DNA from: Crossaster papposus | Taxonomy: Eukaryota > Echinodermata > Asteroidea > Velatida > Solasteridae | NCBI GenBank assembly: GCA_037893245.1 | Contig: JBAIAA010000443.1 | Span: 744,001 to 808,000 of the forward strand | DNA length: 64,000 nt | Direction: 5' to 3' | Notes under the pieces: model-generated | The model's input: the letters and a program-made list of their open reading frames with translations, nothing else | Told to the model about the DNA's origin: nothing | The model's database searches: none | Shown: positions 17,471-62,972 of the stretch, in pieces | How positions within the stretch are numbered: position 1 is the stretch's first letter | How the letters are laid out: the number at the start of each line of letters is the position of its first letter | Translations under genes and position numbers: made by a program

Positions 17471-17648
17471 TTGGTCTGTTCATATGATGATCTCTATGTC
17501 CTCGGGCTGACGAATTTTGGGTTTTTCTGCATCTTCCCTTAGATGCTCCAACCCGTTTTATCCAAGGGTTCTGCTTGTGGTTGATTAAATAAGATACATT
17601 TTGTTTTGATACTTATTTACTCCAAACTAAGCATACTGGTTGTAGGAC

Positions 17649-47000: not shown

Positions 47001-50000
47001 CAAGGACAGGTGATGTTGTGAGTGTTACTTTTAACTGTTGAAAAGCCCTCTCACAGTCGTCTGACCAATGAAAACCAACTTCTTTCTGCGTCAATCTATG
47101 TAATGGAGACGCAATTTGAGCAAAGTTGTTGACAAATCGCCTATAATAAAAACACATACCAAGAAAGCTTCGCACTTCCTTCAGGTTCTTAGGTACCGGC
47201 CACTCCTTTACTTGACATATTTTAGCTGGATCTGTAGCAATTCCCTGCTTAGAAACAATATGACCAAGATAAAGAACTCGAGATTGAAACAGTGTACACT
47301 TTTTAGCTTTCAACATCAATCCCGCATCTTTAAGTCTCGCAAGGACAATCCCTAGGCGAGCAAGGTGTTCATCAAAGGTTTTGGCAAATACAATTATGTC
47401 GTCCAAATAGACTAGACAAATTTCCCAATGAAGCCCTGCAAGTATACGCTCCATAAGGCGCTCAAAGGTGGCCGGAGCATTACATAACCCAAAGGGCATT
47501 ACATTAAACTCGTATAGGCCGGTACCAACTGAAAAGGCAGTTTTATGGCGATCAGCTGGATCCACTTCGACCTGCCAATAACCGCTTGCTAAATCTATCG
47601 TACTGAACCATTGGGCCCCATGTAAAGCATCAAGACTGTCGTCAATCCGTGGTAGGGGATAAGCATCTTTATGAGTGACGTCATTTAATTTACGATAGTC
47701 GATGCAGAATCTTGTACTTCCATCTTTCTTTTTTACCAAAACTACAGGTGACAACCATGAGCTATCAGATGGACTTACCACACCCTGTTTGACCATGTCG
47801 CTGATATGCTTATTCATCTCTGGTTGTTGATGATACGGAACTCGACGAACTCTCTGCCGGATGGGAGGATGATCTTTAGTATGGATGCGATGCTGAACTT
47901 TTTCTGTTATGCCCAGTTCACCAATCTTAGGAAAGACAGCTTGATGATCTTTGATCAAAGCTTTCAGATGCCCCTGTTGTTCCTCATTCAGCTCTTTAGA
48001 GCTACGTTGCAAGAGATCAACTAGCTCCGGGGTGTTCTCAAGCTCTGTGGTGCCATGATCTAAAGATATAGGCCTGGAATTAAAAGACTCTGGAATCCCA
48101 TGAACGGACTGTAACAAAGCAACGTTAGTATTTTTATACAAAGTTATAGGATCACTCTGCACATTTAAAATTCTAACAGGAACAAATCGATTGGAAACAC
48201 TAACAAGCGCCCGTGCTACAAGGACTCCCTTTTCCTGAATCACCTTGGCCGTTGGCTCGGTCATTCCCACAGACAGGGGCCTCCTAGCTGCAATTCTTCC
48301 AGAGATTACAGACTCTTGACCTGGCTGAATAGTCACAGTCCGATCAACTACAATACGACAACAAAATGAAGAATCTGTTTCTTTGATGGCACGAAGAACT
48401 GTACCATTAATTAACAGCTCACCTCGACCTGGATTTATAACTACGTCGTGGCTCTGAAGGTCCATACCTAGGACACCAGCTGGTTGAATATCTGCAACCA
48501 CAACATTGTGAAGAGCCTTCAGCTTGCCTAATTGTAGAGAAACCTGTAATTCTCCGTTGACCACAAGTTGAGCACCAGTAGCAGAAATCATGGATAGATC
48601 ACATGGTTTCAGTTGCTGTTGAATGTTTTCTGAAAATAACTGAAACACCTGTGAATTTATGACAGTTTCCGATGATCCTGTGTCAATCAACATTTTAACA
48701 TTAATACCTGATATAGTTATAAAAACAAACATGGAAATGTGTCCAAATGACGGATGAGCCTGTTTTGCTAGATGTGGTTGTACGTCGGCCCCAGATACAA
48801 CCGGCCCTAGTTTTCCTGGTTGTAGGGAAGCTCTGATCTACAGTACCTTTGGATATGACCCCTTTTCCCACACTTATGGCACACAATGTTTTGTCTCTTC
48901 ATTTGCTGGACCAGCTCTTGCATAATTTTGATTTGTTCGTTTGCCTTACCTTCTAGATTATTCATTCGTTGTTCCAAGTTCAGTTGGGCTTTATTATGTA
49001 CAACCGGTTCCTGTAAGGAAGCTAAGCATGGCTGACTATCTGTGACAGGGTTACTCTCGGCCAGGAGAATATCTTCCTCCCTTTAGACAATTTTTAACGC
49101 AAATTGGAGCGTCTCTGGGTTTGCACGACGTACTTCAGCACGAATGGCTTTCGGGCGCAAAGCATCAACAAAATAGTTCACGGCTAAGTTTTCTCTGTTT
49201 TCAGTATCTATGCGGGGGTATGCATTGGCTACTTGACCACGAATGTCTTGAGCCAACGCAGCGAGCTTTTCGCCACTTTGCCTTTCACGTTGTTTTAAAC
49301 GTGAACGGTAAGTGTCAGCAGAATGGCTAGGGCTGAAACGTGCACGGAACTCATCAAGTGTTCCCAAGTAATTTGATTTACAAGTGTCGGGCATATGTCT
49401 GAAAAATTTGAGGGCCTCTCCTCTTAAACTAACAGCAAAATTATTGATTTTATCATCGGCATTCCATTGGTTAACCGTACTACACAAGTTAAAGTGTAAA
49501 ATCCAATCTTTAAAATCGGTGGTCCCATCGTATGTTTCTGGAATGCGGTGATGTGAACCTTCCACATAAATTACATTTGGGTTCTGTGATACTGGTCTGG
49601 ATTTCGCTTTTCGTCTTACTGTAACATTATCAACAGAGGACCTTGAACTAGAAATAGGCCCTCCAGTTATCGGGTGGTCATGGGTCTGAGGTTTGGGCGG
49701 TTTCTGTTTCCGATAACTGGAGGAACCCGCTCGACAGATATGCAAATCTAAATAACCAACTACTAGTCCAGGCAGGCCTAGCCAAGATTAAGATTCCTGT
49801 CAACCTCTAATCCAGTCAACGCTAACAACAAGCATTTGTTACACTATCCCTCTCTATGACAGTAAGACCATGAAGTACCTGATAGGCTATGGTGAGAGAT
49901 CCAACACGGCCAATGACCAGGCTGTGGTTACCAGACTCAAAGCAGCCTTCCTAGCAGCCAAAGCCTCGGGGAATAGCCAACTGCAAGAAATCGTGGTCCA

Positions 50001-53000
50001 CACGATTGCAGAACTGGGAGTGTAAGTTTTCTTTCTTAAATTGTACCAAGTCATTCATGTTGGTTGTGTAAAATTCAGAGCAACAAAAGTCGGAAGTCTA
50101 GACGCTGAGTATTTAAGATACTATGCCTGACTTAAACTGGATTGCTTTTACATAAGAAAGCTTGGTGGTTGAGTGGTAAAGACATCAACACTTAGTCTAG
50201 TATAAAGCAGGAAGTCGTGGGTTCGAGTCCCATCCGAGTTGGCTTCTGAATAATTTCTCGCAAGCCCCCAGACAACACTGAGTAATTAATAATAAATCCA
50301 GACATTAGTTTTTAATTTGTGTAAATACCACATATTTATATTTATATATTTATATATCCATATATTTATGTTTAATTGTTTTGTCATTCAATCAGTTTGG
50401 AGAGCCCCCTGACAGAAACTAGTTTCTTTTGGGCAATCCTGCGGGAGCTAATTGGATGTTGTTTTAGTTTTTTTATGTTATTGTTAAGTTGCATTGTTTT
50501 TTTCCATTTATTCTTTATTGTGTTCATTATTTGTCTGTAGTTCTGTGACAATAAGTGTATATCCCGGAAAATGAAATAAATAAATAAATAAATAAAGACA
50601 TTGACTGAAGGCGGGGCTTTGAACCAGCGACCTCCGAACTATTCTTTTTGTGCTTTACCAACTGAGTTATCTCTACCCCCATGTTTGCGGTTTTCCAACT
50701 TTGTCGATATCTTTGTGCGCTGGTCAGAAGCCATAAACTCGTAAATGCCATGGGGCCAGGGATCACGCTCCAACAAACCTGGGAAATAGCCGAAAAAAAT
50801 TAAAAAAAGTTAGTTTTGTTGTCGGGCAGTGTATTTTTGTTTGTATGACGGTGTTTGTCACCATGTGTATGACAGTTGCTGAGGGTGAGTTGTTACTAGT
50901 CTCCATCATCAGCCTCTTGGAGTCGCTCCTGTCATCCTCGGCTCTCGTCAGAGCTGCTGCTTATGTTAAGGTCAGTTACCGGTACTCAATTAGCCCTAAC
51001 CCCTTGATTGCTTATACTAGAAAGTGTCCTGAATCTGCCAAAGTCCATCAAGTTTGCCATGCAAACAATTCTGGTGTCCTGGTGTTGATCATAATTCTCC
51101 AGTATACATTCTGAAGAAATCCTGAATCCGTCAACAATCCACCAGCAAAAGTATGATGGATTCTAACGGATTCGAGATACCATGCTGGCCTAAAAATATT
51201 TTGCATTGTTTCTTCATATAATCTTTCAAATCTGTCACCTCAAAATCCATTCTGCAGTACTGCACAATCCTGCAGTACTGCTAGGCTTAAAATCCTGAAT
51301 CCATCAGAACTCCTCCAAAACAGGGAATAGATTTTGATGGATTTAGGTACGTTAGGGTTAAAGAATTCACAAAGCCTCAGCCGATACTTTTTAAAATTTA
51401 CATCGTTATTTGGTTACACCTGAAGTTTTTAAAATATATTTAATTAGGGCGACCTTGCGACAACACAGATCAGTCAAAGACTAACTTTTCAGAATAAAGC
51501 TGTGCCTGAGCTTGGACAGTATTAATCACAATTTTTGTGTGACCCGAATGTAACTGCGATGATATTAAGATATTAAACAGTCGCAAGAGTAGATAAGTTT
51601 CAACTTACGCACCGCAATAAAATGTGTTCCCTACATCGATTGGGGAAATCAATCGCAGTTAACCCGTTGTCATGCGTGCCTCTTATTTCGTTTTGTAGCC
51701 GATCAGCGTGCGGTTAATGGTCGAATGAACAGATTGACATGGCTATGAAATATCATTGGTTATCAACACGCGCACTGCCATTTTGAAGTTAAATGATCAT
51801 GTCCATGCCAAGAAATTGTCGCTGCCTTCTGGGTCCTAAGATGTAGCTGCTCTTAAAAGTTTAAAACATTGACATTTTGTGCCGGGAACTCCCTGGAACA
51901 ACCTAAGGCTGTTCAGGATAAGTCAGACACATATTAGAGTGGGGAAAATCTTCTCAACTCAAGGCTCTTCTCTACACAAGAGTTGCTCAGAGCGACCTTC
52001 AAGGCTAAGGATGCAGGTCCGTTTTGTTGGAAATCTACCGCTGATTGTGATGATTGCGATTACTCTCTGTTAATTACACAATAAACCTGTAAACAACTGG
52101 ATTGCTTTGCTTTGTGGTAAGCTTTGCCCAGCCAGCACCCGCAACTACATCTACCAGTCGCGTGCATCTACCAGTCGCGTGCATCTACCAGTCGCGTGCA
52201 TCTACCAGTCGCGTGCATCTACCAGTCGCGTGCATCTACCAGTCGCGTGCATCTACCAGTCGCGTACATCTACCAGTCGCGTACATCTACCAGTCGCGTA
52301 CATCTACCAGTCGCGTACATCTACCAGTCGCGTACATCTACCAGTCGCGTACATCTACCAGTCGCGTACATCTACCAGTACATCTACAATTACAAGATCT
52401 TTATTTGATATGTCCTTATGTTTGTCAGGTTTTCAGCGGTCTAGCCATGCTTGCCTCCAAGGATACCAACTACAGAGGACCTAAACCCATCACCGAGGCA
52501 ACGGCCATGGCTGACTTTCTCCAACCCAGACTTCTGGGTATTCTGGCTTTTTTTGATTCTCGCACATTGCAGTGGAAGACAAGAAACTGGTAACAAATTA
52601 ATGATGTTTTTAATAATTCATAATCTTTTGTTATTATACTGAATGCTTAACTGTGTCTGTGTTTCATTCGTCATTTTTCATCAAAACTTTAAGATTAAAA
52701 GGACAAGCAATGTATTTTGTTTCTGTAATGCTTAAAAATGGATCTTTGTGGCACATTTAACCTTATTTTCTAATTTAAATTGTTGCAATTTGTTACGGTA
52801 TTTTGGTGCCTTTTTGTTTTCACGCCACTGCAAATTCCCCGCATATTCATGAACAGAACTGTGATGTCATTCCGGGCAGAAACCTCAAATGTTACAGCTA
52901 TTTTGGCATGAAAAGTTGCTAGAATTTGGATGTTTGAGTTGTAAATGTTGGGGTTTTTTGAGATCTTTTCTTGTGTCTCTACATGGCAGTATTAGCTAAT

Positions 53001-56000
53001 GAGCAAACGTTTCTTACAAATGATCAAATTTAGGGTCGGACAAAAAACCCGCTACACTAAACAGTGTCTTTCTGAAATGTCATCAAAGCAAGAGCGCCCT
53101 AAGTTGTCAAGAAAACTATTAACCATTTTAATGTTTAAAGAAGTGCGCTTTCCAATAAAATTTACCAAAAAGGGATGTAAACCTTTTTTTAGGTATTTAT
53201 TTATTTAGGTAGTATATTCTTGAACAAAATGTTTTCTTAATAAAAATTCATCGCATATGAAGCTTTTGAGTATAGGTATTGTAAAAGTTCTCACCTAACT
53301 TTTTAAAGATATGACAGACACAAGGAGGGTAAAGTCCGTAAATACAAAAATAAATTTTACCCACCCCAAATATAGTACCCTCCATATATAAACAAAAAAA
53401 ATAAGTTAATCAAGGATAGAGGCATAATAATATTAATGACCTCGATAATCTCATTGTCCTGTTAGGCCCTAGAAAGTCTTGTGTGCATCATGTACCAGGC
53501 ACATCACCGGTGTCCGACTCAAGATCATGGCCACCCTCAAGATTGGTCTACACTTTAAGGATAATGGGTTTCCCTTACTGTCCTGCAGGGCATGGCAGTG
53601 CTTCGTGCACAGGTAGGAGTGTAAAATGTGGTCAAATCTCGTCGTTATGGGTTGCAAAAACAATCTCGGAACCTTAAAACCAGCAAAGTTTTCTTGCGAG
53701 TTTCACAAATTTTAAGAGAGTGTATGTCAATTGATTTTTCTATTAGTGAGGCATTCTGGAAAAATGAGACAGAAGTGGGCACAGGCATAGAGTTATATTA
53801 TAGAAACTAGAGAGCTCACCCACTATACTGTGCACGCTACACATAACTGTAACCCGTCTGTAAATTTGTAAGTGGGCAACACGATAGTAAAATACCCGGA
53901 TGTATCATGCACTTAACGGCGTGGCAGCTATAATTTAGCAAACTTTATTGGCTGTTTAATGTCGGTCTCAAGTGAAATTGCGTGTGGTACCGGTACTTGG
54001 ACAGACAGCTCATTGGTAAATCTTATCTCTATTTTCCTCCAAGTCAATGGTGGATCCAGGATTTGATTGCTCATGGCTGATGAGGTCATGAAATGGCAGA
54101 CGCAGAGAGCAAAGGCGCGAAGCAGTGGACTTACACGATTATATGACAGGCGAATTTTGCATGTTGCTTTGTGTAACCCACCATGGTTTCACCCTTATCC
54201 CAGGAAGTATTTACTTGTGAAAAGAAACGGTTCTGGTCTTGCTGACGTTGCTCCGATTTGTGCAGCCAAAGCACGCATAAATCTCGCCCCCGGGATCTAT
54301 TTGCAGGGCGCGGCCAAGAGATGAAGGAGATACGTAGGCTATGTCAACTATGTCAACTTCGTACTTTTTGAAGTACAACAAATTATTGTAAATTAAAATG
54401 AAAAATAATATTTTTATGAAAGCTTTTGTTTACCTCTTAGTGAAAATTATTTCAAGAAAACTACTAAATTTACATGTTGAAGATCCTATTTGAGGTGCCC
54501 GGGACCTCGGTTTCTCGTAAACTCTTGCACGTTCTTGGGGTCAACTTATACGCCGAATGGGTGTGGTATTTTTTATTTTTTGTTACAGATTTATTGATGT
54601 TTGTAATTTTTGAAACATCGTTTACACATATATTTTTTAATTTTTTTTCTCCCAGTGTGGAGCCATCGTCCCTCGGTCCAATGATCAGTCAGGTCATTGT
54701 CACTCTGCTTTGTTTACTTCATCAATTGCCAGAGCAGGTGGCTAAGATCTACAACTTCCTCATCGTTGAAAACAGGTGCCAAGAAATTCTTCTTTAATAA
54801 TTTGTTAAACATAACTAGAAATTCCTGCTAAAAGTAGCATTACTCTGGCTATTTTGAGTCCTTTTTCTTTTAAAAGTTTCTCACTTTTAAATAAGACATC
54901 GACCAAAATAAAATCAGCCCATGTTTAGGTAATAAATTATTACTGTAAACATTTTGAATTATTAGCTGCCAAACGTTAATTTAATTTTTGCTAGTGCTGC
55001 CCCTCAACCAGTATTGATAATGCACAGAGCCAGTCTGCTCCCAAAGCGAATCTGTTTGTGCCCAATGCAAGAAACTTATTTTCAGAGAAAAAGTTATGAA
55101 AGGTTTTAGTTGCATTAAAACATACGAGTTGAAAATGTATTAAGAGGAGAAAAAAAGTCTACGTCGTTTTTCAAACCCAAGCTTAGATTTTGTCTCCGTC
55201 TCCATCACCGGCTCCATCACCATTGACGAACTGCATAAACGAAGCCACAGACGAAGATGAAGCTGGGGTTTGGAAAACTGCCATAATTTGTTGTACGGGT
55301 AATGCAATTTGCACGGGTAATGCAAGTTTTTGGTTTGTAGTAAAAGTGAATACTTCAAAGTGAATTTATTTGAAGGTTTGCAGTCGAACCAAGTACTAAG
55401 TTTCTTGTGAGTCTAGGTGGTCCTTTGTCAAACTTCAGACTGTTCAAGAGGAAAGGGGAAGTTATAAATCTTCAAAGGGAAAATGCAAGATCTGAGACTG
55501 TTTCATTTTCTTGTTTCTCCTGATTCTACAGGGAGAGTTTCAACCAGCATTTTCACGAGTTGTACTTCATGCCCGACCTGGCAGAACTCAACGAGGTCAA
55601 CTCTGTCTTGAAGGAACATCGGGAGGATCCTTCCAGTCAGCCGGATCTTAAGACTCAACTCAGGCAGTCTATCAAGGGAGTGACTCATGAGAGTCTGGAT
55701 GTCAGACTTCACGCGCTGTCAAAACTCCGGGACCTGCTGCGAAAGAACCAGGTCAGAATAAGCCAGTGCGATATTCCTTTTGCGCCTGTGCACAACAAGA
55801 TTCAACAATTTGTTCTCTCATGAAAAACGTGGCAGATAAATGCAGACAAGGCTGTGAAATTTTTTGTGCAATCGATAAGGAAGACGGTGCATACGTTTGA
55901 CCTATCTGGACTTTTTTCTTAATTTGATTATAACCTTCAAATTTTGTAAATTGAAATGAAAAATTATATTTTTATGAAAGCTTTTATTTTAACCTTTAAT

Positions 56001-59000
56001 TAAAAAAAACAGCGTTAAAACAAATTATGTCACGTTGAAGCTGAGGTTGAGGTGCTTGGAAGTTCGGTTTCTCGTAAACTCTTGTACGTTCTCTGGGTCA
56101 ACTTACACGCTCTATAGGCAATGCGGTCAATATTACCTCTCTTGTTGACTAGATACATTTTTTCTTCGCCCCTTTTCTGTAGTCGTGATGGGTAACGAGA
56201 TAGTAGATCCTACTATTACTGAACTGGTCTCCGTGGTAAGTCTTATCTTTCGCCTAATTAGTGTTAAAAACACTATGAACATAATTTTTAACATTAATAC
56301 TACCATATATTTCAATTCGAAAATCCATGTTTCTCTTCTATATAATGTAACAAATGTATTTATTATTACAACAGATTGGTGATATAGGATTGTGTCTTTG
56401 ATGGAATTTGGAGTATGTCATAAGAAAGATATTAGACTGAAGGGCCGTTGCAGATTTGTTCTTGGAAAAATTGGAACATGGCTTGTTCTACATTTATTTC
56501 TTCAAAGGACGAATCTGAGATGGCCCTAAAGCAAAATATCGTTCTCATGACATACTCTGTGTGCCAAATCTCATGCTTGTATCATATCATTTTTGTTTTG
56601 TTTTTTGGTATAGTTATTGAGTGGTTTTCGTGACTCCGACACAAAAGCACAGAGTCTGTTTGGTGAGTGTCTGAGAGAGTTGGGTGCCATTGATCCTGGG
56701 AGGCTGGAGATTATTACTAACAACACAATAAACCTGTAAACAACTGGATTGCTTTGCTTTGTGGTAAGCTTTGCCCAGCCAGCACCCGCAACTACATCTA
56801 CCAGTCGCGTGCATCTACCAGTCGCGTGCATCTATCAGTCGCGTGCATCTACCAGTCGCGTGCATCTACCAGTCGCGTGCATCTACCAGTCGCGTACATC
56901 TACCAGTCGCGTACATCTACCAGTCGCGTACATCTACCAGTCGCGTACATCTACCAGTCGCGTACATCTACCAGTCGCGTACATCTACCAGTAGCGTACA
57001 TCTACCAGTACATCTACATCTACCAGTACATCTACAATTACAAGATCTTTATTTGATATGTCCTTATGTTTGTCAGGTTTTCAGCGGTCTAGCCATGCTT
57101 GCCTCCAAGGATACCAACTACAGAGGACCTAAACCCATCACCGAGGCAACGGCCATGGCTGACTTTCTCCAACCCAGACTTCTGGGTATTCTGGCTTTTT
57201 TTGATTCTCACACATTGCAGTGGAAGACAAGAAACTGGTAACAAATTAATGATGTTTTTAATAATTCATAATCTTTTGTTATTATACTGAATGCTTAACT
57301 GTGTCTGTGTTTCATTCGTCATTTTTCATCAAAACTTTAAGATTAAAAGGACAAGCAATGTATTTTGTTTCTGTAATGCTTAAAAATGGATCTTTGTGGC
57401 ACATTTAACCTTATTTTCTAATTTAAATTGTTGCAATTTGTTACGGTATTTTGGTGCCTTTTTGTTTTCACGCCACTGCAAATTCCCCGCATATTCATGA
57501 ACAGAACTGTGATGTCATTCCGGGCAGAAACCTCAAATGTTACAGCTATTTTGGCATGAAAAGTTGCTAGAATTTGGATGTTTGAGTTGTAAATGTTGGG
57601 GTTTTTTGAGATCTTTTCTTGTGTCTCTACATGGCAGTATTAGCTAATGAGCAAACGTTTCTTACAAATGATCAAATTTAGGGTCGGACAAAAAACCCGC
57701 TACACTAAACAGTGTCTTTCTGAAATGTCATCAAAGCAAGAGCGCCCTAAGTTGTCAAGAAAACTATTAACCATTTTAATGTTTAAAGAAGTGCGCTTTC
57801 CAATAAAATTTACCAAAAAGGGATGTAAACCTTTTTTTAGGTATTTATTTATTTAGGTAGTATATTCTTGAACAAAATGTTTTCTTAATAAAAATTCATC
57901 GCATATGAAGCTTTTGAGTATAGGTATTGTAAAAGTTCTCACCTAACTTTTTAAAGATATGACAGACACAAGGAGGGTAAAGTCCGTAAATACAAAAATA
58001 AATTTTACCCACCCCAAATATAGTACCCTCCATATATAAACAAAAAAAATAAGTTAATCAAGGATAGAGGCATAATAATATTAATGACCTCGATAATCTC
58101 ATTGTCCTGTTAGGCCCTAGAAAGTCTTGTGTGCATCATGTACCAGGCACATCACCGGTGTCCGACTCAAGATCATGGCCACCCTCAAGATTGGTCTACA
58201 CTTTAAGGATAATGGGTTTCCCTTACTGTCCTGCAGGGCATGGCAGTGCTTCGTGCACAGGTAGGAGTGTAAAATGTGGTCAAATCTCGTCGTTATGGGT
58301 TGCAAAAACAATCTCGGAACCTTAAAACCAGCAAAGTTTTCTTGCGAGTTTCACAAATTTTAAGAGAGTGTATGTCAATTGATTTTTCTATTAGTGAGGC
58401 ATTCTGGAAAAATGAGACAGAAGTGGGCACAGGCATAGAGTTATATTATAGAAACTAGAGAGCTCACCCACTATACTGTGCACGCTACACATAACTGTAA
58501 CCCGTCTGTAAATTTGTAAGTGGGCAACACGATAGTAAAATACCCGGATGTATCATGCACTTAACGGCGTGGCAGCTATAATTTAGCAAACTTTATTGGC
58601 TGTTTAATGTCGGTCTCAAGTGAAATTGCGTGTGGTACCGGTACTTGGACAGACAGCTCATTGGTAAATCTTATCTCTATTTTCCTCCAAGTCAATGGTG
58701 GATCCAGGATTTGATTGCTCATGGCTGATGAGGTCATGAAATGGCAGACGCAGAGAGCAAAGGCGCGAAGCAGTGGACTTACACGATTATATGACAGGCG
58801 AATTTTGCATGTTGCTTTGTGTAACCCACCATGGTTTCACCCTTATCCCAGGAAGTATTTACTTGTGAAAAGAAACGGTTCTGGTCTTGCTGACGTTGCT
58901 CCGATTTGTGCAGCCAAAGCACGCATAAATCTCGCCCCCGGGATCTATTTGCAGGGCGCGGCCAAGAGATGAAGGAGATACGTAGGCTATGTCAACTATG

Positions 59001-62000
59001 TCAACTTCGTACTTTTTGAAGTACAACAAATTATTGTAAATTAAAATGAAAAATAATATTTTTATGAAAGCTTTTGTTTACCTCTTAGTGAAAATTATTT
59101 CAAGAAAACTACTAAATTTACATGTTGAAGATCCTATTTGAGGTGCCCGGGACCTCGGTTTCTCGTAAACTCTTGCACGTTCTTGGGGTCAACTTATACG
59201 CCGAATGGGTGTGGTATTTTTTATTTTTTGTTACAGATTTATTGATGTTTGTAATTTTTGAAACATCGTTTACACATATATTTTTTAATTTTTTTTCTCC
59301 CAGTGTGGAGCCATCGTCCCTCGGTCCAATGATCAGTCAGGTCATTGTCACTCTGCTTTGTTTACTTCATCAATTGCCAGAGCAGGTGGCTAAGATCTAC
59401 AACTTCCTCATCGTTGAAAACAGGTGCCAAGAAATTCTTCTTTAATAATTTGTTAAACATAACTAGAAATTCCTGCTAAAAGTAGCATTACTCTGGCTAT
59501 TTTGAGTCCTTTTTCTTTTAAAAGTTTCTCACTTTTAAATAAGACATCGACCAAAATAAAATCAGCCCATGTTTAGGTAATAAATTATTACTGTAAACAT
59601 TTTGAATTATTAGCTGCCAAACGTTAATTTAATTTTTGCTAGTGCTGCCCCTCAACCAGTATTGATAATGCACAGAGCCAGTCTGCTCCCAAAGCGAATC
59701 TGTTTGTGCCCAATGCAAGAAACTTATTTTCAGAGAAAAAGTTATGAAAGGTTTTAGTTGCATTAAAACATACGAGTTGAAAATGTATTAAGAGGAGAAA
59801 AAAAGTCTACGTCGTTTTTCAAACCCAAGCTTAGATTTTGTCTCCGTCTCCATCACCGGCTCCATCACCATTGACGAACTGCATAAACGAAGCCACAGAC
59901 GAAGATGAAGCTGGGGTTTGGAAAACTGCCATAATTTGTTGTACGGGTAATGCAATTTGCACGGGTAATGCAAGTTTTTGGTTTGTAGTAAAAGTGAATA
60001 CTTCAAAGTGAATTTATTTGAAGGTTTGCAGTCGAACCAAGTACTAAGTTTCTTGTGAGTCTAGGTGGTCCTTTGTCAAACTTCAGACTGTTCAAGAGGA
60101 AAGGGGAAGTTATAAATCTTCAAAGGGAAAATGCAAGATCTGAGACTGTTTCATTTTCTTGTTTCTCCTGATTCTACAGGGAGAGTTTCAACCAGCATTT
60201 TCACGAGTTGTACTTCATGCCCGACCTGGCAGAACTCAACGAGGTCAACTCTGTCTTGAAGGAACATCGGGAGGATCCTTCCAGTCAGCCGGATCTTAAG
60301 ACTCAACTCAGGCAGTCTATCAAGGGAGTGACTCATGAGAGTCTGGATGTCAGACTTCACGCGCTGTCAAAACTCCGGGACCTGCTGCGAAAGAACCAGG
60401 TCAGAATAAGCCAGTGCGATATTCCTTTTGCGCCTGTGCACAACAAGATTCAACAATTTGTTCTCTCATGAAAAACGTGGCAGATAAATGCAGACAAGGC
60501 TGTGAAATTTTTTGTGCAATCGATAAGGAAGACGGTGCATACGTTTGACCTATCTGGACTTTTTTCTTAATTTGATTATAACCTTCAAATTTTGTAAATT
60601 GAAATGAAAAATTATATTTTTATGAAAGCTTTTATTTTAACCTTTAATTAAAAAAAACAGCGTTAAAACAAATTATGTCACGTTGAAGCTGAGGTTGAGG
60701 TGCTTGGAAGTTCGGTTTCTCGTAAACTCTTGTACGTTCTCTGGGTCAACTTACACGCTCTATAGGCAATGCGGTCAATATTACCTCTCTTGTTGACTAG
60801 ATACATTTTTTCTTCGCCCCTTTTCTGTAGTCGTGATGGGTAACGAGATAGTAGATCCTACTATTACTGAACTGGTCTCCGTGGTAAGTCTTATCTTTCG
60901 CCTAATTAGTGTTAAAAACACTATGAACATAATTTTTAACATTAATACTACCATATATTTCAATTCGAAAATCCATGTTTCTCTTCTATATAATGTAACA
61001 AATGTATTTATTATTACAACAGATTGGTGATATAGGATTGTGTCTTTGATGGAATTTGGAGTATGTCATAAGAAAGATATTAGACTGAAGGGCCGTTGCA
61101 GATTTGTTCTTGGAAAAATTGGAACATGGCTTGTTCTACATTTATTTCTTCAAAGGACGAATCTGAGATGGCCCTAAAGCAAAATATCGTTCTCATGACA
61201 TACTCTGTGTGCCAAATCTCATGCTTGTATCATATCATTTTTGTTTTGTTTTTTGGTATAGTTATTGAGTGGTTTTCGTGACTCCGACACAAAAGCACAG
61301 AGTCTGTTTGGTGAGTGTCTGAGAGAGTTGGGTGCCATTGATCCTGGGAGGCTGGAGATTATTACTAACAACAAGACAGAAGATATGTCCAAGTTCCATG
61401 TAAGTATTGCCATCAACTTTGGTATAAATCGGGTGAACAAAACTCACTGTCTAGACTATAAACTGTCAGTCTTTCTTTTGACTTTTTTAGACTCTGACTG
61501 GCGTTTATAATGCCAACTTTGCTTTTGATCTGATCAGTGAGCTAGCAAGAGCCTTCTTAGCTGCAGCCGATACTCGCTGTCTTCATTATAAACTGTCAGT
61601 CTTTCCTTTGACCTTTCAGACTGGCGTTGACGGCACCAACTTTGCTTTTGATCTGATCAGTGAGCTAGCAAAAGCCTTCTTAGCTGCGGCCAATACTCGC
61701 TGTCTACACTATAAACTGTCGATCTTTTCTTTGACCTTTCAGACTGGCGTTGACGATGCTAACTTTGCCTTCAATCTGATCAGTGAATTAGCGAGAGCCT
61801 TCTTAGCTGCGGCCAATACTCACTGTACACACTATAAACTGTCAGTCTTTCGTTTGACCTTCCAGACTGGCGTTGACGCCGCTAACTTTGCATTCAATCT
61901 GATCAGTGAGCTAGCAAGAGCCTTCTTAGCTGTGGCCAATACTTACTGTCTACACTATAAACTTTCATTCCTTCCTTTGACCTTTCAGACTGGCGTTGAT

Positions 62001-62972
62001 GACGCCAACTTTGCCTTTGATCTGATCAGTGAGCTAGCGGGAGCCTTCTTAGCTGCAGCCGATACTCGTTCTCAGGACTGCTCTGCCTATGCCATACAGG
62101 AGCTGCTTCAGATCTACGATTGCAAGGAATCACCAAAAGAATCGTAAGTAACTCTTTCAATTTTGTTATTCATTTGATAGAATTTTCGATTATAATTTGT
62201 GATTAAAGTATATAAAGTGATAAGAATACAAATATATCTGGAGCCTTTCTTTTATAGAAAGATTGTTAACTTTATGTTTATTTCCTTTCATTGATTGTCT
62301 ATGTTGACAATCATCCGCCTGTTAAAGTTATATCTGGTGGAGTGCCATGCCGTGCTCTCGTGGTCTGGAGCATTGAATTTGTGGTCTGGGGAATTCTGCA
62401 GTTTGCGGGTTTGAGTCCAGCCTGGGTTTATGTCCAGCCTGGGTTTATAATGTGTGTGCCCTTGGGCGAGGTACTTATTCACTGTTTGCTTCTCTCCACC
62501 CAGGAGTAAATGGGTATCTATGAGTGCAGAGATGGTTATTGTGGTTGATTTAGCTGCATTGCGCCAAACTGGCAGCATCAAGCTGTATACTTCTCAGGGA
62601 GCTGAGATTGTATTTGGAATGTTTCATTGCCCCAATGATTAGAGTAATAATGATGCAGCTCCTTGGTTATCTGACATGGTGGATAAGTTCACTTTACAAT
62701 CTCATTATTATAGCAGCTGTAATGGTAAATCAGATGCAGGTCAAATTTAAATTTTGTCGTATTAACTTTTCCCGACCTGTAGATCTGGCCGTCAGCTTTG
62801 GAGGCGTTTCTCCGGCCACATTAAGGAAATCTTACTCCCCCTCCTTGATGCTAAGTATGTCCCCGCCTCTTCTCTTTCATGGACTAACATCCCTAAGCCC
62901 ATCTATCGGAGCAAGAAAGGCAAGACGTACAAGGACTGGGTCTGTGCTTGGACTGGATACCTTGTTACCAAG
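19995..62972 (+). CDS. ATR: ATR checkpoint kinase gene, N-terminal HEAT-repeat part (multi-exon, incomplete)
   Basis: ATR is the PIKK-family kinase that, with its partner ATRIP, senses RPA-coated single-stranded DNA in the nucleus and phosphorylates CHK1. About 29 distinct exons read in order against human ATR recalled from memory, from the N-terminus to the start of the FAT domain (human residue about 1650 of 2644). Most junctions keep phase at GT-AG sites. The kinase, PRD and FATC parts lie beyond the window. Oddities are an expected stretch missing between 29634 and 34784, most of the UME region missing between 50970 and 52429, a 4.65 kb tandem duplication covering six exons, a fivefold 123-bp exon amplification, and four one-base frame conflicts between 50021 and 56183. 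The locus may be functional but misassembled, or damaged. Confidence 0.93.
20141..20775. repeat. Dispersed repeat in ATR intron 1
   Basis: AGTATCCTGATGCTACTTCA at the left and CATTTTTGCACTGATTGACC at the right recur at 30077-30215 in a shorter copy. No coding potential or transposon class was recognised. The rest of intron 1 up to 20880 shows nothing else. Confidence 0.6.
20885..21310. repeat. Pair of tRNA-like SINE pieces in ATR intron 1
   Basis: GTTTACTTTGAAATTTATGC and its near copy occur at about 20947 and 21230, each followed by AAATTTACCTG. A tRNA-like A-box (GATAGCTTGTTTGGTAGAGC) lies at 21174 and its inverted partner at about 20905. A third fragment of the family is at about 41365. 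Both are incomplete. Confidence 0.55.
21333..21418 (+). CDS. ATR: ATR exon 2
   Basis: The frame begins by completing a Thr codon and reads PDERQKALKTCRKIICHLVD, then SCLTDLQK. This parallels human ATR [20 protein letters not shown]. It has a TTCACTCAG acceptor and a GTCAGT donor, and leaves one base for the next exon. Confidence 0.85.
21911..22272. mobile_element. Foldback MITE with AATTGACCATTTGC ends
   Basis: A 362-bp palindrome-like element. The ends are AATTGACCATTTGC and GCAAATGGTCAATT, and about 90 bp of the two arms (TATCTGGTACACTGACT, CACACAGCTTGGCACAGTTT) are near-perfect inverted copies. No open frame of note. It lies in the second ATR intron. Confidence 0.8.
22782..23171 (-). pseudogene. 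LINE ORF2 C-terminal fragment
   Basis: The antisense frame reads CRMWEQKDENVIHLVCECNK, then MAQMEYKRRQDKL. This resembles the Cys/His motif and the LAQKEYKRRHD stretch seen at the C-terminus of the reverse-transcriptase ORF of some non-LTR retrotransposons. About 130 residues are seen, with no reverse-transcriptase core, so this is a 5'-truncated copy. Its relics may extend to about 23480. The call is from memory of the family. Confidence 0.65.
23567..23755 (+). CDS. ATR: ATR exon 3
   Basis: It starts with TT, completing Val, and reads VAAELSNSQLSTVMLNFLDQ followed by YCISQFPIMFARTSL. This aligns to human VAVELVKKTDSQPTSVMLLD and the following residues. The second half (about 30 residues) is not conserved. 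It leaves one base, which fits exon 4. Confidence 0.85.
23784..24206. mobile_element. MITE with GGGTGGGTTTTCACGGGGC ends
   Basis: A 423-bp element with about 50-bp terminal inverted repeats. The left reads GGGTTTTCACGGGGCTTGCG; the reverse complement of the right reads GATTTTTTACGGGGCACGCG. The interior is rich in GCGAA and CGAAC words, and no protein is recognised. The rest of this intron (24207-25089) shows nothing I can name. Confidence 0.75.
25090..25260 (+). CDS. ATR: ATR exon 4
   Basis: It encodes GLNTWLLSCLIRILNDYF, then IVKVMVSLLHAVKYKDPPSF, matching human FSNWIITRLLRIAA and ICEVICSLLFLFKSKSPAIF. Clean CACAG acceptor and GTGAGA donor, phase 1 to phase 1. This is the N-terminal HEAT region. 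Confidence 0.9.
25435..25467. repeat. (TTTTTTA)n microsatellite
   Basis: Four to five units of TTTTTTA in the intron between 25260 and 25866. The rest of that intron holds only a lone CAGTCAAGTCTCGTTAAA end (about 25560), similar to Tc1/mariner-type MITE termini. Confidence 0.85.
25866..25978 (+). CDS. ATR: ATR exon 5
   Basis: Reads DVSAAVLNNFAAGDVEEL and on to VDKLSSLE, loosely matching the human stretch around MSRFLSQLDEHMGYLQSAPL. It joins exon 4 in frame (G plus AT) and ends at phase 0 before GTATGA. Sequence similarity is weak, so the call relies mainly on phase and position. Confidence 0.75.
26729..26820 (+). CDS. ATR: ATR exon 6
   Basis: Reads EQEEMLCTYRNSRPITLRYH, then TNCNLLQLNL, at phase 0 after exon 5, with a GTGAGT donor leaving two bases. 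The end corresponds to human MSMQNLEFIEVTLLMV. The first half has no clear human counterpart, so the exact acceptor is less sure. Confidence 0.7.
27010..27320 (+). repeat. tRNA-type SINE tail family, copy 1
   Basis: It shares with 62345-62655 the string TGTGCCCTTGGGC, CTCCACCCAGGAGTAAATG, and TGGCATCGAGCTGTATACT (TGGCAGCATCAAGCTGTATA in the other copy). The two copies are about 75-80 percent alike. A SINE is inferred from length, dispersion and style. No intact Pol III boxes are visible. Confidence 0.6.
27781..27898 (+). CDS. ATR: ATR exon 7
   Basis: Acceptor TTTTTTCAG, then KLLNELIYDVTLVTSFHQSP and FWSTLVQQFDAGQYEVKQ. It corresponds to human LTRIIAIVFFRRQELLLWQI and the residues after it. 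Phases agree on both sides (completes Thr, ends at phase 0 before GTAACT). Confidence 0.8.
28255..28488. mobile_element. piggyBac-type MITE, family A copy 1
   Basis: 234 bp flanked by TTAA on both sides (28251-28254 and 28489-28492), with ends CCAGTTCGCGCC and GGCGCGAACTGG. TTAA target duplication is the known signature of piggyBac. Not coding. Confidence 0.85.
28521..28654 (+). CDS. ATR: ATR exon 8
   Basis: Reads ATLDVITKLLPLNGLPTTDI, then LMQLMLFFLTLFLSVDDLEG. It aligns to human SLAISFLTELFQLGGLPAQP and FLELLKHLVEMDTDQLKL. Donor GTGAGT, two bases left over. Confidence 0.87.
29471..29634 (+). CDS. ATR: ATR exon 9
   Basis: Reads LEKSLASCLKELFSLDQTYY, then LPVSVLNVTMETMASYLPIR, aligning to human YEEPLSKLIKTLFPFEAEAY and IEPVYLNMLLEKLCVMF. 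It leaves one base (G). The next recognised exon (34784) starts at phase 0, so at least one exon between them is not seen. Confidence 0.87.
29821..29905 (+). repeat. tRNA-derived SINE head (Ser/Leu-like)
   Basis: A-box-like GGTGGAGTGGTAAGAC, a long variable part, and B-box GGGTTCGAGTCC. Relatives lie at 35315-35395, 37990-38050, 40829-40905 and 50158-50240. The acceptor stem does not pair well, so this is read as a SINE head and not a working tRNA gene. Confidence 0.7.
30333..30611. mobile_element. piggyBac-type MITE, family B
   Basis: 279 bp flanked by TTAA (30329-30332 and 30612-30615), with ends CCCTGCGAGCAGC and GCAGCTCGCAGGG. The interior differs from family A. It lies 50 bp upstream of the large foldback element. 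Confidence 0.8.
30664..34171. mobile_element. Harbinger-type 3.5 kb foldback element
   Basis: The two arms, about 30664-31772 and 32836-34171, are inverted copies over more than 1.1 kb (for example GGCCGCTTACTGAAATTGAC, CCCGTCCTAGCACGGGCCAG and GCTTTAGCCTGATACAGAG). Three-base TTA duplications flank it (30661-30663 and 34172-34174), the known signature of PIF/Harbinger. No transposase frame is seen. The middle (31773-32835) has a 32-base C-run and two copies of CATCCGAGAAATAAATAGTC. The right arm carries a nested 107-bp MITE. The remaining intron 34175-34783 has nothing recognised. Confidence 0.85.
33284..33390. mobile_element. Short MITE nested in the foldback right arm
   Basis: 107 bp with ends GGCCGTTTTCCAAACCCC and GGGGTTTGGAAAACCGCC, absent from the matching place in the left arm. 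It therefore inserted after the foldback formed. Related to the element at 55163-55282. Confidence 0.78.
34784..35070 (+). CDS. ATR: ATR exon with basic, NLS-like segment
   Basis: Starts FVVAPLLRTIQNEF, matching human EYLLGPLYAALKMES, runs through a Ser/Thr-rich linker and ends GDERQDKRRRLALHRTPGKK. The human protein has SPKRRRLSSSLNPSKRAPK at the same place, a basic cluster that could act as a nuclear localisation signal. Donor GTGCGA is weak. It leaves two bases, which fit the exon at 36147. Confidence 0.85.
35575..35985 (+). repeat. Two tandem tRNA-derived SINE copies
   Basis: The second copy (35761-35985) has an A-box-like TGGCTCAGTCGGTAGAGC and a B-box GGTTCAAATC. Both copies continue with GGGTAGTACTTCGGTGCGG or a variant, then CTCAACAATTGATCTTCCTG and GTCTAGCACTAACAAAAAG. 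The first copy (35575-35752) lacks the clear A-box. Tandem SINE pairs are less usual than single insertions. Confidence 0.75.
36147..36252 (+). CDS. ATR: ATR exon 11
   Basis: Reads EVASSSDEDSAFVVENSLTV, then KEIVEKLSNISTSQT, comparable to human QKSILWSALKQKAESLQISL. Acceptor ACATCAG, donor GTGAGT, ends at phase 0. The acidic Ser-rich start is a possible phosphorylation patch (inference). Confidence 0.8.
36461..36530 (-). repeat. Antisense tRNA-like SINE piece
   Basis: The reverse strand shows a B-box-like GAGTTCAAATCC and an A-box-like TGACCTAGTAGTTACGG, in the intron between 36252 and 36934. Nothing else was recognised in that intron. Confidence 0.55.
36934..37261 (+). CDS. ATR: ATR exon 12
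   Basis: One of the largest exons, 109 codons. It reads DSLKDILEGIRCCLEVLLRS, parallel to human NPVIEMLEGIAVVLQLTALC, and later FAAWMPLEQIRELCATLVAV, parallel to VVITWMSLDFYTKVLKSCRS. Donor GTGAGC, one base left over. HEAT-repeat region. Confidence 0.92.
37405..37499 (+). CDS. ATR: ATR exon 13 (3' end uncertain)
   Basis: Reads DLIKLPLSQLHTFVWMLSLP, then WLPK, matching human EDHILEDLCGMLSLPWIY. The homology ends near 37475. The only donor that keeps phase with the next exon is the weak AAT|GTGAAA after 37499, which adds about eight residues (FFFSILNN). The 3' boundary is therefore uncertain. Confidence 0.75.
37762..37852 (+). CDS. ATR: ATR exon 14
   Basis: Reads MDSNWLDLRVQGDMTSREIA, then ELSSALADKI, corresponding to human DDGCLKLTTFAANLLTLSCR. 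Good GCCTTCAG acceptor and GTAAGC donor. The leftover G completes the first Asp of the exon at 39004. Confidence 0.82.
38628..38837. mobile_element. piggyBac-type MITE, family A copy 2
   Basis: 210 bp, same family as 28255-28488 (GTTCGCGCC end, CCGAGCCGAGG, CAGGTTCAGGCCGAT, GTTTATGCGTCATC). It is flanked by TTGA on the left and TTAA on the right. It is more diverged and shorter than copy 1. Confidence 0.82.
39004..39098 (+). CDS. ATR: ATR exon 15
   Basis: Reads DEDMECLFLHNLALFPKEIA, then SKWRTHVFKDAV, closely matching human CVFLLTLFPRRIFLEWRTAV. Acceptor TTTTTCAG, donor GTAAGT, ends at phase 0. Confidence 0.92.
39549..40510. mobile_element. Foldback element built of degenerate TTACG words
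   Basis: 962 bp with inverted ends (left CACAGGTTTTCTTTTTAG, then AAGTCCTTACGGATCGC; right GCAATCCGTAAGGACT to CAGTG) and TA on both sides. The interior is a dense run of TTACG-type words in the left and right parts and CGTAA words in the middle, at irregular 8-20 base spacing. No protein. TA duplication would fit Tc1/mariner (inference). Confidence 0.75.
40604..40704 (+). CDS. ATR: ATR exon 16
   Basis: Reads GSAKTSVRVAAVNAFPFLHK, then LGANSLHLLYDHF, matching human SHEVIRASCVSGFFILLQQQ. Donor GTAAGT, two bases left over. It lies 94 bp downstream of the TTACG-word element. Confidence 0.9.
40829..40905 (+). repeat. tRNA-derived SINE head
   Basis: GATGGTCGAGTGGTAAGACC followed by ATGGGTTCGAATCCTACCC. 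Same family as 29821-29905. Confidence 0.65.
41022..41120 (+). CDS. ATR: ATR exon 17
   Basis: Reads DMLKDKSTIVLEELGRTVGT, then VSCVVCKKVEPH, matching human KVKDDSDIVKKEFASILGQL. Acceptor TTTGTACAG, donor GTAGGA. It leaves AG, which fits the exon at 41558. Confidence 0.9.
41130..41310. repeat. Degenerate short-word repeat (AAGTCC, TGTCGC)
   Basis: Repeated variants of CACAAGTCCATTGCAAGTCC and TGTCGCTTGTCTGTCGCTTG, with no fixed period. No ends recognised. It resembles the interior style of the TTACG element. The intron otherwise has an old SINE piece at about 41365. Confidence 0.6.
41558..41736 (+). CDS. ATR: ATR exon 18
   Basis: Starts inside CCAACAG|A with a poor pyrimidine tract. This acceptor keeps phase with the previous exon and avoids an in-frame TAG just upstream. 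It ends LPLAVVVPYFVLLSNKVSVK, matching human KASVCKPFLFLLKKKIPSPV. The Cys/Ser-rich first half aligns poorly. Donor GTAAAG. Confidence 0.83.
41926..42183. mobile_element. MITE with GGGCCCGATTTCATAAA ends
   Basis: 258 bp, left end GGGCCCGATTTCATAAA and right end TTTATGAAATCGGGTGC. The interior is rich in GCGACGCGTCG words, many in inverted orientation. No coding capacity. Confidence 0.8.
42722..42753. repeat. (ACATGT)n microsatellite
   Basis: About five units of TGTACA/ACATGT in the intron between 41736 and 43079. The remaining 300 bp before the next exon show nothing recognisable. Confidence 0.85.
43079..43211 (+). CDS. ATR: ATR exon 19
   Basis: Reads DFLRSFPQLFNHLDLLRPNT, then FLISCLDLIEDKKYDLRLEF, matching human AFIDNLHHLCKHLDFREDET and LLNLMEDPDKDVRVAFS. 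Acceptor TTGGCAG, donor GTAAAC. The following intron (43212-49862) hosts the Ty3/gypsy fossil. Confidence 0.92.
43379..44416 (-). repeat. LTR, 3' end of the gypsy fossil
   Basis: 1,038 bp from TGTAACGG to TTGTTACA. Its last 106 bp (44311-44416) match 49738-49843. A 366-bp MITE is nested inside at 43594-43959. Confidence 0.85.
43594..43959. mobile_element. Tc1/mariner-pogo-type MITE nested in the LTR
   Basis: 366 bp, ends CAGTCAAACCTTGATATAGC and GGCAGGTTTGACTG, flanked by TA on both sides. Repeated GGCCACTATA and TGGCCGC words inside. CAGTCAAACC ends with TA duplications are typical of this class. Confidence 0.82.
44990..48732 (-). pseudogene. pol region of the gypsy fossil
   Basis: In order on the minus strand: aspartic protease (DTGSSETVIN), reverse transcriptase (FCIDYRKLN, YLDDIIVF), RNase H (LDTDASGEGIGAVLSQ), integrase zinc-binding (CEQCQARK) and catalytic core (RIALDVIGPLP, SDQGSNFES, GLVERFNRTLE), then a C-terminal part (CHWKGPCTI). 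The set and order are those of Ty3/gypsy. Confidence 0.92.
48839..49745 (-). pseudogene. gag region of the gypsy fossil
   Basis: It shows a capsid-like stretch (PETYDGTTDFKDWILHF, RGEALKFFRHMP, FRARFSP) and a CCHC zinc knuckle (CHKCGKRGHIQRYC) at about 48839-48886. Gag packages the element RNA in related elements. Treated as a fossil part. Confidence 0.85.
49738..49843 (-). repeat. LTR sequence, 5' end of the gypsy fossil
   Basis: 106 bp shared with 44311-44416, ending TTGTTACA before the CTAT target duplication. The ATR exon at 49863 begins 19 bp further on. Confidence 0.85.
49863..50021 (+). CDS. ATR: ATR exon 20
   Basis: Completes Ser from the exon ending at 43211, then KTMKYLIGYGERSNTANDQA, VVTRLKAAFLAAKASGNSQL and IVVHTIAELG. 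It aligns to human NIKHILESLDSEDGFIKELF and LKDTLILTTGDIG. It starts only 19 bp after the end of the Ty3/gypsy element. The GTAAGT donor leaves two bases, but the next exon needs one. Confidence 0.9.
50158..50240 (+). repeat. tRNA-derived SINE head
   Basis: AGCTTGGTGGTTGAGTGGTA, then GTCGTGGGTTCGAGTCCC. Same family as 29821-29905, with a lengthened middle. It lies in the intron between 50021 and 50876. Confidence 0.7.
50575..50700 (-). repeat. Antisense tRNA-like SINE with (AAAT)n tail
   Basis: (AAAT)n at 50575-50597 is followed by an antisense tRNA-like segment. On the reverse strand the A-box reads GATAACTCAGTTGGTAAAGC and the B-box GGTCGCTGGTTCAAAGCC. Confidence 0.65.
50876..50970 (+). 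CDS. ATR: ATR exon 21
   Basis: Reads VAEGELLLVSIISLLESLLS, then SSALVRAAAYVK, matching human AAKGDLVPFALLHLLHCLLS and SVSGAAYTEI. Donor GTCAGT. The only good acceptor (TATGACAG) gives a one-base frame conflict with the exon ending at 50021. Confidence 0.87.
51020..51360. repeat. Degenerate AATCC-word repeat
   Basis: Many variants of TCCTGAATCCGTCAA and GATGGATTC in both orientations without a fixed period. Similar words occur at 21770-21850 and 22480-22600. The rest of 50971-52075 has no recognised exon; 51860-52075 is open over 64 codons but matches nothing I know. Confidence 0.6.
52145..52385. repeat. 17-bp minisatellite, about 13 units
   Basis: Unit CATCTACCAGTCGCGTG, six units with G in the last position followed by seven with A. 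Because 17 is not a multiple of three and the unit has no stop in any frame, all three + frames stay open, giving spurious repeats such as HLPVACIYQSRAST. It lies about 70 bp inside the left edge of the duplication and directly upstream of an ATR exon. Confidence 0.95.
52429..52589 (+). CDS. ATR: ATR exon 22, copy 1 (end of UME region)
   Basis: Reads VFSGLAMLASKDTNYRGPKP, then AMADFLQPRLLGILAFF, matching human VFNGLSILASFASSDDPYQG and LMADYLQPKLLGILAFFN. The exon ends VEDKKL in a second frame (human IEDKKM), which fits the next exon at phase 0. At 161 nt it is therefore one base off within the last 20 codons. Confidence 0.9.
53466..53612 (+). CDS. ATR: ATR exon 23, copy 1
   Basis: Begins ALESLVCIMYQ (human ALNSLMSLMKLM) and continues in the next frame as HITGVRLKIMATLKIGLHFK, then FPLLSCRAWQCFVH (human HVSSVRVKMMTTLRTGLRFK and PELCCRAWDCFVRC). 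There appears to be one extra base near CCAGGCAC (about 53495-53502). Donor GTAGGA. Confidence 0.88.
54656..54775 (+). CDS. ATR: ATR exon 24, copy 1
   Basis: Reads SVEPSSLGPMISQVIVTLLC, then LPEQVAKIYNFLIVEN, matching human LDHACLGSLLSHVIVALLPL and ETAAIFHYLIIEN. The acceptor is preceded by a T-rich tract. It leaves AG, which fits the next exon. Confidence 0.93.
55163..55282. mobile_element. Short MITE with GTTTTCCAAACCCC ends, copy 1
   Basis: About 120 bp with inverted ends, CGTTTTTCAAACCCAAGC on the left and GCTGGGGTTTGGAAAACTGCC on the right. A relative is inserted in the foldback element at 33284-33390. A second copy lies at 59811-59930 because of the tandem duplication. No coding capacity. 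Confidence 0.7.
55532..55751 (+). CDS. ATR: ATR exon 25, copy 1
   Basis: Reads ESFNQHFHELYFMPDLAELN, then LRQSIKGVTHESLDVRLHAL and SKLRDLLRKNQ. It aligns to human DAVQDFLHEIYFLPDHPELK and LQLSMKAIQHENVDVRIHAL. Donor GTCAGA, ends at phase 0. Confidence 0.95.
56183..56235 (+). CDS. ATR: ATR exon 26, copy 1
   Basis: Short exon reading VMGNEIVDPTITELVSV, comparable to human DSETVEPIISQLVTV. It has a strong acceptor after a pyrimidine tract (CTTTTCTGTAG) and a GTAAGT donor. Its two leading bases require a leftover base that the exon ending at 55751 does not supply, so a microexon may be missed or a one-base error present. Confidence 0.8.
56614..56725 (+). pseudogene. ATR: ATR exon 27, copy 1, truncated by the duplication join
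   Basis: Reads LLSGFRDSDTKAQ, LFGECLRELGAIDPGRL and EIITNN, then runs into intron sequence at 56723-56725 without a donor site. The intact copy is at 61262-61399. If this fragment is skipped, the exon ending at 56235 (phase 0) could splice to 57077 (phase 0). Confidence 0.92.
56791..57010. repeat. 17-bp minisatellite, second copy, about 12 units
   Basis: Same unit as at 52145, with the same order of G-type then A-type units. It has one unit fewer and three private variants (TCTATCAG, GTAGCGTA and an extra CATCTAC block at the end). These are the main differences between the two duplication copies. Confidence 0.95.
57077..57237 (+). CDS. ATR: ATR exon 22, copy 2
   Basis: Identical to 52429-52589 except for one base (DSHTLQ in place of DSRTLQ). 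It carries the same one-base frame conflict, so that change predates the duplication or both copies come from one consensus. Confidence 0.9.
58114..58260 (+). CDS. ATR: ATR exon 23, copy 2
   Basis: Same sequence as 53466-53612, including the apparent extra base between MYQ and HITGV. Flanking intron sequence is also unchanged. Confidence 0.88.
59304..59423 (+). CDS. ATR: ATR exon 24, copy 2
   Basis: Same sequence as 54656-54775 (SVEPSSLGPMISQVIVTLLC), with intact splice sites. Confidence 0.92.
59811..59930. mobile_element. Short MITE, second copy through the tandem duplication
   Basis: Identical to 55163-55282. It was copied with the 4.65 kb block and not by a new insertion. Confidence 0.7.
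60180..60399 (+). CDS. ATR: ATR exon 25, copy 2
   Basis: Same sequence as 55532-55751 (HELYFMPDLAELN), with intact splice sites. Confidence 0.94.
60831..60883 (+). CDS. ATR: ATR exon 26, copy 2
   Basis: Same sequence as 56183-56235 (VMGNEIVDPTITELVSV). It ends at phase 0 and joins the intact exon at 61262 in frame. Confidence 0.8.
61262..61399 (+). CDS. ATR: ATR exon 27, intact copy
   Basis: 46 codons containing LFGECLRELGAIDPGRL, nearly identical to human LLCGECLGELGAIDPGRL and the strongest single identifier of the gene. It ends EDMSKFH at phase 0 with a GTAAGT donor. A short 91-bp intron follows. Confidence 0.96.
61446..62060. repeat. 123-bp tandem repeat of an intron-exon junction, five copies
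   Basis: ACTGGCGTT starts at 61497, 61620, 61743, 61866 and 61989, exactly 123 bp apart. Each unit has about 45 bp of intron end (CACTATAAACTGTCAGTC plus a pyrimidine tract and AG) and about 78 bp of exon start. Units differ at roughly 5-10 percent of sites, so this amplification is clearly older than the 4.65 kb duplication. Confidence 0.95.
61491..62143 (+). CDS. ATR: ATR exon 28 with five in-frame 41-residue repeats
   Basis: Open from the acceptor at 61490 (TTTTTTAG) to a GTAAGT donor after 62143, 217 codons plus two bases. It reads TLTGVYNANFAFDLISELAR, then four more near-copies starting TGVDGTNFAF, TGVDDANFAF, TGVDAANFAF and TGVDDANFAF. Only the last continues into SQDCSAYAIQELLQIYDC, matching human AQDSAAYAIQELLSIYDC. 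Human ATR has one copy (TGVEDSSFAYGLLMELTRAY). Each repeat carries its own CTTTGACCTTTCAG-type acceptor, so any of the five could be used and all keep phase 0. Confidence 0.9.
62345..62655 (+). repeat. tRNA-type SINE tail family, copy 2
   Basis: Second member of the family at 27010, in the intron between 62143 and 62783. It carries a small internal duplication (CCAGCCTGGGTTTAT twice). The rest of this intron has no recognised feature. Confidence 0.6.
62783..62972 (+). CDS. ATR: ATR exon 29, entry to the FAT domain
   Basis: Reads SGRQLWRRFSGHIKEILLPL, then WTNIPKPIYRSKKGKTYKDW and WTGYLVTK. It matches human GHQLWRRFPEHVREILEPHL, GVKKPIYLSKLGSNFAEW and WAGYLITK. It joins the previous exon in frame (TC plus A) and ends at phase 0 before GTAACA. 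This is the last ATR exon seen; the gene continues past the window. Confidence 0.95.

Follow-up and report, generated by a model that had tools for sequence, protein, structure and literature searches.

In most animals ATR is an essential checkpoint kinase encoded by a single-copy gene. Its copy in the sea star Crossaster papposus described here carries a tandem repeat, and in-frame coding minisatellites and tandem repeats of exon parts are a general known kind. Amplification of a genome-guard gene is known from elephants, in which TP53 has reached many copies, many of them truncated, by way of retrocopies; sea urchins are also used for the study of long life. Among echinoderms, passages of two papers describe SpTransformer (Sp185/333) of the purple sea urchin as clustered segmental duplicates with a repeat-bearing coding exon and local instability (PMC5103432, PMC10887614), and passages of a third, in which ATR is unnamed, describe gene family expansions in other camarodont urchins (PMC13419447). 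The titles and abstract openings covered by a literature search held no report of ATR amplification or of the 123-bp array.

The locus lies in a 64,000-nucleotide stretch of DNA, analysed as a whole and called the window below. Analogous to in-frame coding minisatellites, its array has a unit that is a multiple of three, open joins and number changes by unequal exchange; here, however, the unit straddles an intron-exon border, and an intron tail with its splice site became the repeat. The amplified genome-guard gene with many truncated copies is shared with elephant TP53, but the ATR copies are intron-bearing genomic segments and not retrocopies. Clustered segmental duplicates, a coding exon with repeats and local instability are shared with SpTransformer as those passages present it, an immune family where ATR is a checkpoint kinase. 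Relative to human ATR, the window exons align to residues about 1089-1767, with weaker N-terminal matches, and in one of the two classes of copy described below (class B) there are linked FAT, kinase (GLGDRHGEN...DFN) and FATC exons as well. The window copy differs in that FAT is incomplete and kinase and FATC are absent. The copies also differ from human ATR in the extra array, placed before the helix at residues 1384-1409, and in number, dozens here versus one. We favor, at a probability of roughly 55%, reading the array as a passive in-frame minisatellite within a strongly amplified ATR family.

The 123-bp array and its splice sites

The array occupies 61446-62060 of the window on the plus strand. 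The five-fold 123-bp repeat of the first-pass annotation is real, as Tandem Repeats Finder reports 61438-62068 with a period of 123, 5.1 copies, 84% matches and a score of 849. The unit is exactly 41 codons, with starts at 61446, 61569, 61692, 61815 and 61938, and the joins proved open as claimed: a frame of 218 amino acids (61491-62144) runs through all units and stops at 62145-62147, within the following intron. The composition of the unit, an intron end followed by an exon start, is likewise supported. In unit 1 (61446-61568; acceptor AG 61489-61490) the intron part contains in-frame stops, while unit 2 (61569-61691; AG 61618-61619), unit 3 (61692-61814; AG 61741-61742), unit 4 (61815-61937; AG 61864-61865) and unit 5 (61938-62060; AG 61987-61988) are open. 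Unit 5 runs on into the remainder of the ancestral exon (62061-62143, plus strand), which encodes the second HEAT helix (DTRSQDCSAYAIQELLQIYDCKESPKES) and ends at a GTAAGT donor from 62144. An example of a peptide that spans a former splice site is LSVFPLTFQTGVD. The divergence of 5-10% first given for the units was wrong: units 2-5 are 85-88% identical (12-15% different), and in an ungapped count the identity of unit 1 to the other four drops to 65-72%, owing to a different intron part and an offset. Human ATR does have a single such segment; in phmmer, only the last unit and its tail aligned.

Splice sites were scored with approximate matrices. In a scan of 61401-62140, the five unit acceptors are the five best-scoring AGs (11.4-13.5, with the next at 7.2), and all are phase-0 3′ splice sites in frame 0, so the claim that every unit keeps a credible 3′ splice site stands. 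The top donor of the interval scanned is GTAAGT at 61400-61405 on the plus strand (CAT/GTAAGT, score 9.3 by the approximate matrix). It follows the ATR exon before the array (61262-61399, plus strand; LLSGFRDSDTKAQSLFGECLRELGAIDPGRLEIITNNKTEDMSKFH), which matches human ATR residues 1339-1373 by tblastn and ends in phase 0. Several same-phase acceptors after one donor make these putative tandem alternative 3′ splice sites.

Each unit had been described as a HEAT-type helix pair, but alignment to human ATR yields one HEAT helix plus intron-derived sequence. AlphaFold predicts each unit at low confidence as one helix with a strand-like tail; mean pLDDT is 52.5 for a five-unit and 51.2 for an eight-unit stretch, too uncertain for a fold search. 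By alignment, the added units precede the helix noted above and follow a poorly conserved stretch, and inclusion of units may therefore be tolerated by the protein.

Copies of ATR in the window and across the genome

Joined, the window exons match human ATR chains in the PDB over the HEAT region at an E-value of 6.6e-72, supporting the identification of the gene as ATR; a Pfam scan of the array frame and the joined exons matched no ATR model. We searched contig C443, 684001-868000, by tblastn with a human ATR probe. Besides the exons for residues about 1089-1767, among them the exon after the array at 62782-62972 on the plus strand (SGRQLWRRF...GYLVTK), the window copy gave weak matches to residues 100-149, 616-663 and 880-911. 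Exon order is broken, as an exon for residues 1885-1913 (FAT region) precedes that for 1717-1767, and tblastn found no ATR exons past human residue about 1913 within 60 kb downstream of the window, so that the rest of the FAT, kinase and FATC exons do not follow in order. The supposition of an ATR product from the window gene is thus not supported; judging from its exons, this copy most likely cannot make one. It also has F and R where the copy on C60, class B and human ATR all have C and G, and a short exon at about 60837-60882 is, as read, not in phase with the preceding exon, where a small exon may be missing.

Self-comparison and tblastn further revealed a tandem duplication of a block of about 4.6 kb on the plus strand that holds at least four ATR exons (human residues about 1089-1373), with copies at 52148-56725 and 56795-61372 (end approximate). 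In the class A copy about 115 kb upstream this block is single, and a later exon is partly doubled instead. Each block contains a 17-bp minisatellite of about 13.8 copies. The plus-strand 645-bp satellite at 1-17648 belongs to a 28-kb block (contig positions 733616-761648) lying 5′ of the ATR exons and between ATR copies, and a variant unit at about 91-92% identity recurs in it. Frames of a Gypsy-type LTR retrotransposon (gag, protease, RT, RNase H, integrase) lie at 44990-49787 on the minus strand.

A search for the 27-residue tail that ends the last unit gave 46 places across the 1.02-Gb genome (all 46 candidates scored), every one in or beside an array. A search with the 615-bp array supplied 40 places (40 of 46 candidates scored), a second array search (again 40 of 46 scored) added C355, C635:866520, C950:236109, C67:418945 and C1134, and C246, with three units read, came from a partial reading; C334:144253 lies about 0.8 kb past its array. 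As read from the table, at least 20 places resemble the window sequence closely (class A, 97-100%), and at least 20 are at 89-93% (class B). Frame lengths over the 46 places are 218 (17 places), 312 (one), 352 (one), 353 (ten), 394 (nine) and 397 residues (two), with 341, 177, 171, 161, 152 and 59 at one place each. The main step is 41 residues, or one unit. Unit number varies among copies of the same genome: five, seven and eight were read directly and six is deduced from frame length. Stops are absent from 67 of 70 units read, and the three exceptions are first units of class A arrays, the first part of which is intron. With a unit that is a multiple of three, stop-free units and variable unit number, the array is a putative in-frame coding minisatellite.

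By sequence, 17 of 20 class A arrays have the 218-residue frame; among the others, C67 has eight units and a frame of 341, the tail of C589 contains a stop, and C334:142816 is split. Nineteen of the 20 class B arrays keep frames of 353-397 residues, the exception being C174, where the frame is broken at 152 and the match is one base short. Frame-keeping length changes were also seen, of +9 bases in both C356 arrays and -3 in C635:866520.

Exons linked to the 46 places were sought on the same strand within set distances, using hand-typed tables. The mid-FAT exon tested corresponds to about human 1997-2062, and counts for the FAT, FATC and second kinase exons are lower bounds (best 96 of 448 and 102 of 237 candidates). 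Among 23 places with frames of 312-397 residues (341 left out), the N-terminal exon is linked at 19, mid-FAT at at least 22, kinase at 20 and FATC at at least 14, with all four at 12 or more; for class B, the N-terminal, FAT, kinase and FATC exons follow in order on the same strand. The 17 places with the 218-residue frame have the N-terminal exon at 11 and, among the matches listed, mid-FAT at one (C60); none has a kinase exon within 80-85 kb downstream, and FATC and the full set of four were found at none among the matches listed. Six other places have the N-terminal exon at five, FAT at at least two, kinase at three, FATC at at least three and all four at at least two.

The first kinase exon is complete at 28 places, stop-free and at 98-100% identity (all 40 candidates scored), and the translations printed retain the GLGDRHGEN...DFN motif. 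In 325 pairwise comparisons of 26 loci, this exon differs by 0.80% versus 1.55% for the aligned flanks, with five silent and two changing variants, a pattern compatible with constraint on at least some copies, or with conversion among copies. A multiple alignment of the 26 kinase loci (exon 0.78% versus flank 6.4%, 40% of columns variable) was set aside because indels inflate the gap, and the pairwise figures are used. Further FATC-like exons, about 63-67% identical to human ATR, occur on C130, C185 and C114 and may have arisen when the ATR end was amplified separately; C130 has about a dozen of them, with no FAT or kinase match among those listed. A Bindin exon (C356:817825-818052, E 9.5e-32) shares its contig with an ATR copy at a distance of about 188 kb; bindin is typical of sea urchins, and the match points to an echinoderm genome.

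Rad9 was found at two places that space their exons almost alike, which suggests that both haplotypes are present for some loci, and the haploid ATR number may be about half of 46. The same doubling, together with the 1841 contigs of the assembly, is what could be cited for an assembly artefact in which duplicate contigs or haplotigs make one ATR gene, or a few, look like many. We regard this as very improbable: the window's contig alone holds seven array places, six of them on the plus strand and spaced 111-120 kb, adjacent copies differ (the 4.6-kb block doubled in one, another exon in the other), unit numbers differ between copies, and five weaker kinase-exon places, probably other PIKKs, occur once each on five contigs. 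No array-free ATR copy was found in the genome, although a very divergent ATR could escape; the working ATR of this genome therefore probably carries the array.

Splicing, turnover and selection of the units

In all seven class B loci read (L021, L022, L023, L025, L026, L027 and L028), the intron before the array is mostly deleted, and the upstream exon, a remnant of the intron start bearing GTAAGT and the units form one open frame. These loci have seven or eight units, the first of them partial; one of the seven partly read, C1190, carries a stop in the exon that follows the array. The array of C67 (L024), class A by sequence, has lost the upstream exon and has kinase and FATC exons downstream. 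Since the array is wholly one open frame in the class B copies read, acceptor choice is unnecessary there, even though the donor and acceptors are still present and may yet serve in splicing.

The GTAAGT donor is present in both classes (the window for class A, C902 for class B), and the seven acceptors of C902 are equally strong. These sites would also permit splicing to the last acceptor, giving an ordinary ATR, and one possible, though doubtful, explanation is that the array is an intron in practice, with its upstream units ignored. Besides the donor kept in both classes, the acceptors of class B agree with such use: their 20-mer is identical in 45 of 45 non-first units, whereas several variants occur among 15 class A ones. 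This uniformity could mean that acceptors are kept for use, and it may stem from constraint or from recent homogenisation. However, splicing usually favors an early strong acceptor, which sits poorly with seven equal ones and a choice of the last, and the long frames kept by 19 of 20 class B arrays also speak against it, although common descent can account for most of them. In L022 (C902), two units also contain a stronger donor-like site, TCG/GTGAGC (6.6 versus 3.2).

The composition of the units points to unequal exchange, as recombinants were read: in C67, unit 5 combines a tail like that of unit 5 with a body like that of unit 2, and in C334, unit 7 pairs a unit-7 tail with the body of unit 8. 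Units 2 and 3 of C861 are identical. Flanks were compared for loci L021-L028 without C363 and C67. In five longer alignments of class B with the window, the difference near the array is 2.5-3.3% for introns and 1.2-1.7% for exons, while the arrays differ by about 7-11% and therefore turn over faster than their flanks. Over short stretches the exon is the more different, at 1.85% of 108 sites versus 1.54% of 521 intron sites in C861 and at 5 of 219 exon versus 1 of 321 intron sites between C60 and the window, the latter result being the reverse of constraint.

Among 24 distinct units, pN/pS is 0.31 for the exon-derived part (0.40 in internal units) and 0.55 for the intron-derived part. The value of 0.31 lies in the direction of purifying selection, but it is not significant when distinct changes are counted. 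Excess silent change is not significant in the units (P 0.08 and 0.33; internal units 0.15 and 0.30), nor when split by class (P 0.08-0.52). No stop occurs in any non-first unit, the one 'stop' tallied for internal class B units arising because linked changes were taken singly. The chance of seeing none is 0.76 and 0.49 (internal units, 0.77 and 0.54). The first-pass annotation had taken open units as a hint of selection and had proposed a silent/changing test between them; that test detected no significant selection, and with openness expected by chance at 0.49-0.77 and a silent excess at P 0.08-0.33, open frames were dropped as a sign of selection. The non-significant silent excess of internal units also fits treatment of the array as an intron.

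We consider it improbable that regulated acceptor choice produces a ladder of ATR forms by unit number that selection maintains. Acceptors that are all in phase and similar in score, copies that vary in unit number and a pN/pS below 1 would each suit such a ladder, but the window copy is without kinase exons, the units carry no significant selection and class B would require no splicing for all units to be included.

A proposed history of the array and what it means

The passive minisatellite remains the reading we prefer, and its history may be sketched as follows. A 123-bp piece of intron end and exon start would have been tandemly duplicated in the ancestral ATR of this lineage, and units would since have been gained and lost through unequal exchange, the extra ones staying in frame thanks to a length of 41 codons and a chance lack of stops. 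Segmental amplification would have spread the gene to about 46 places. In the five-unit group, which includes the window and whose copies lie about 115 kb apart on its contig, the 3′ part of the gene is missing, and these copies are most likely non-functional. The group with six to eight units, as judged by frame fit, continues into FAT, kinase and FATC exons, and its array would have become one long open exon when the intron before it was mostly deleted in frame. Full-length copies, if transcribed, probably retain most units, either through read-through or through an early acceptor, and these units would add helix-plus-linker pieces to a loop between HEAT repeats, tolerated and not selected.

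A stronger version, in which a dozen or more ATR genes work, each with six to eight splice-site-derived repeats, so that every animal would hold ATRs of varied length, seems unlikely. A sea star genome carrying some 20 or more ATR copies with kinase exons, in which each copy checked has an in-frame repeat within the HEAT solenoid, would provide a natural experiment on the dosage of ATR and on the route from splice acceptor to coding sequence.
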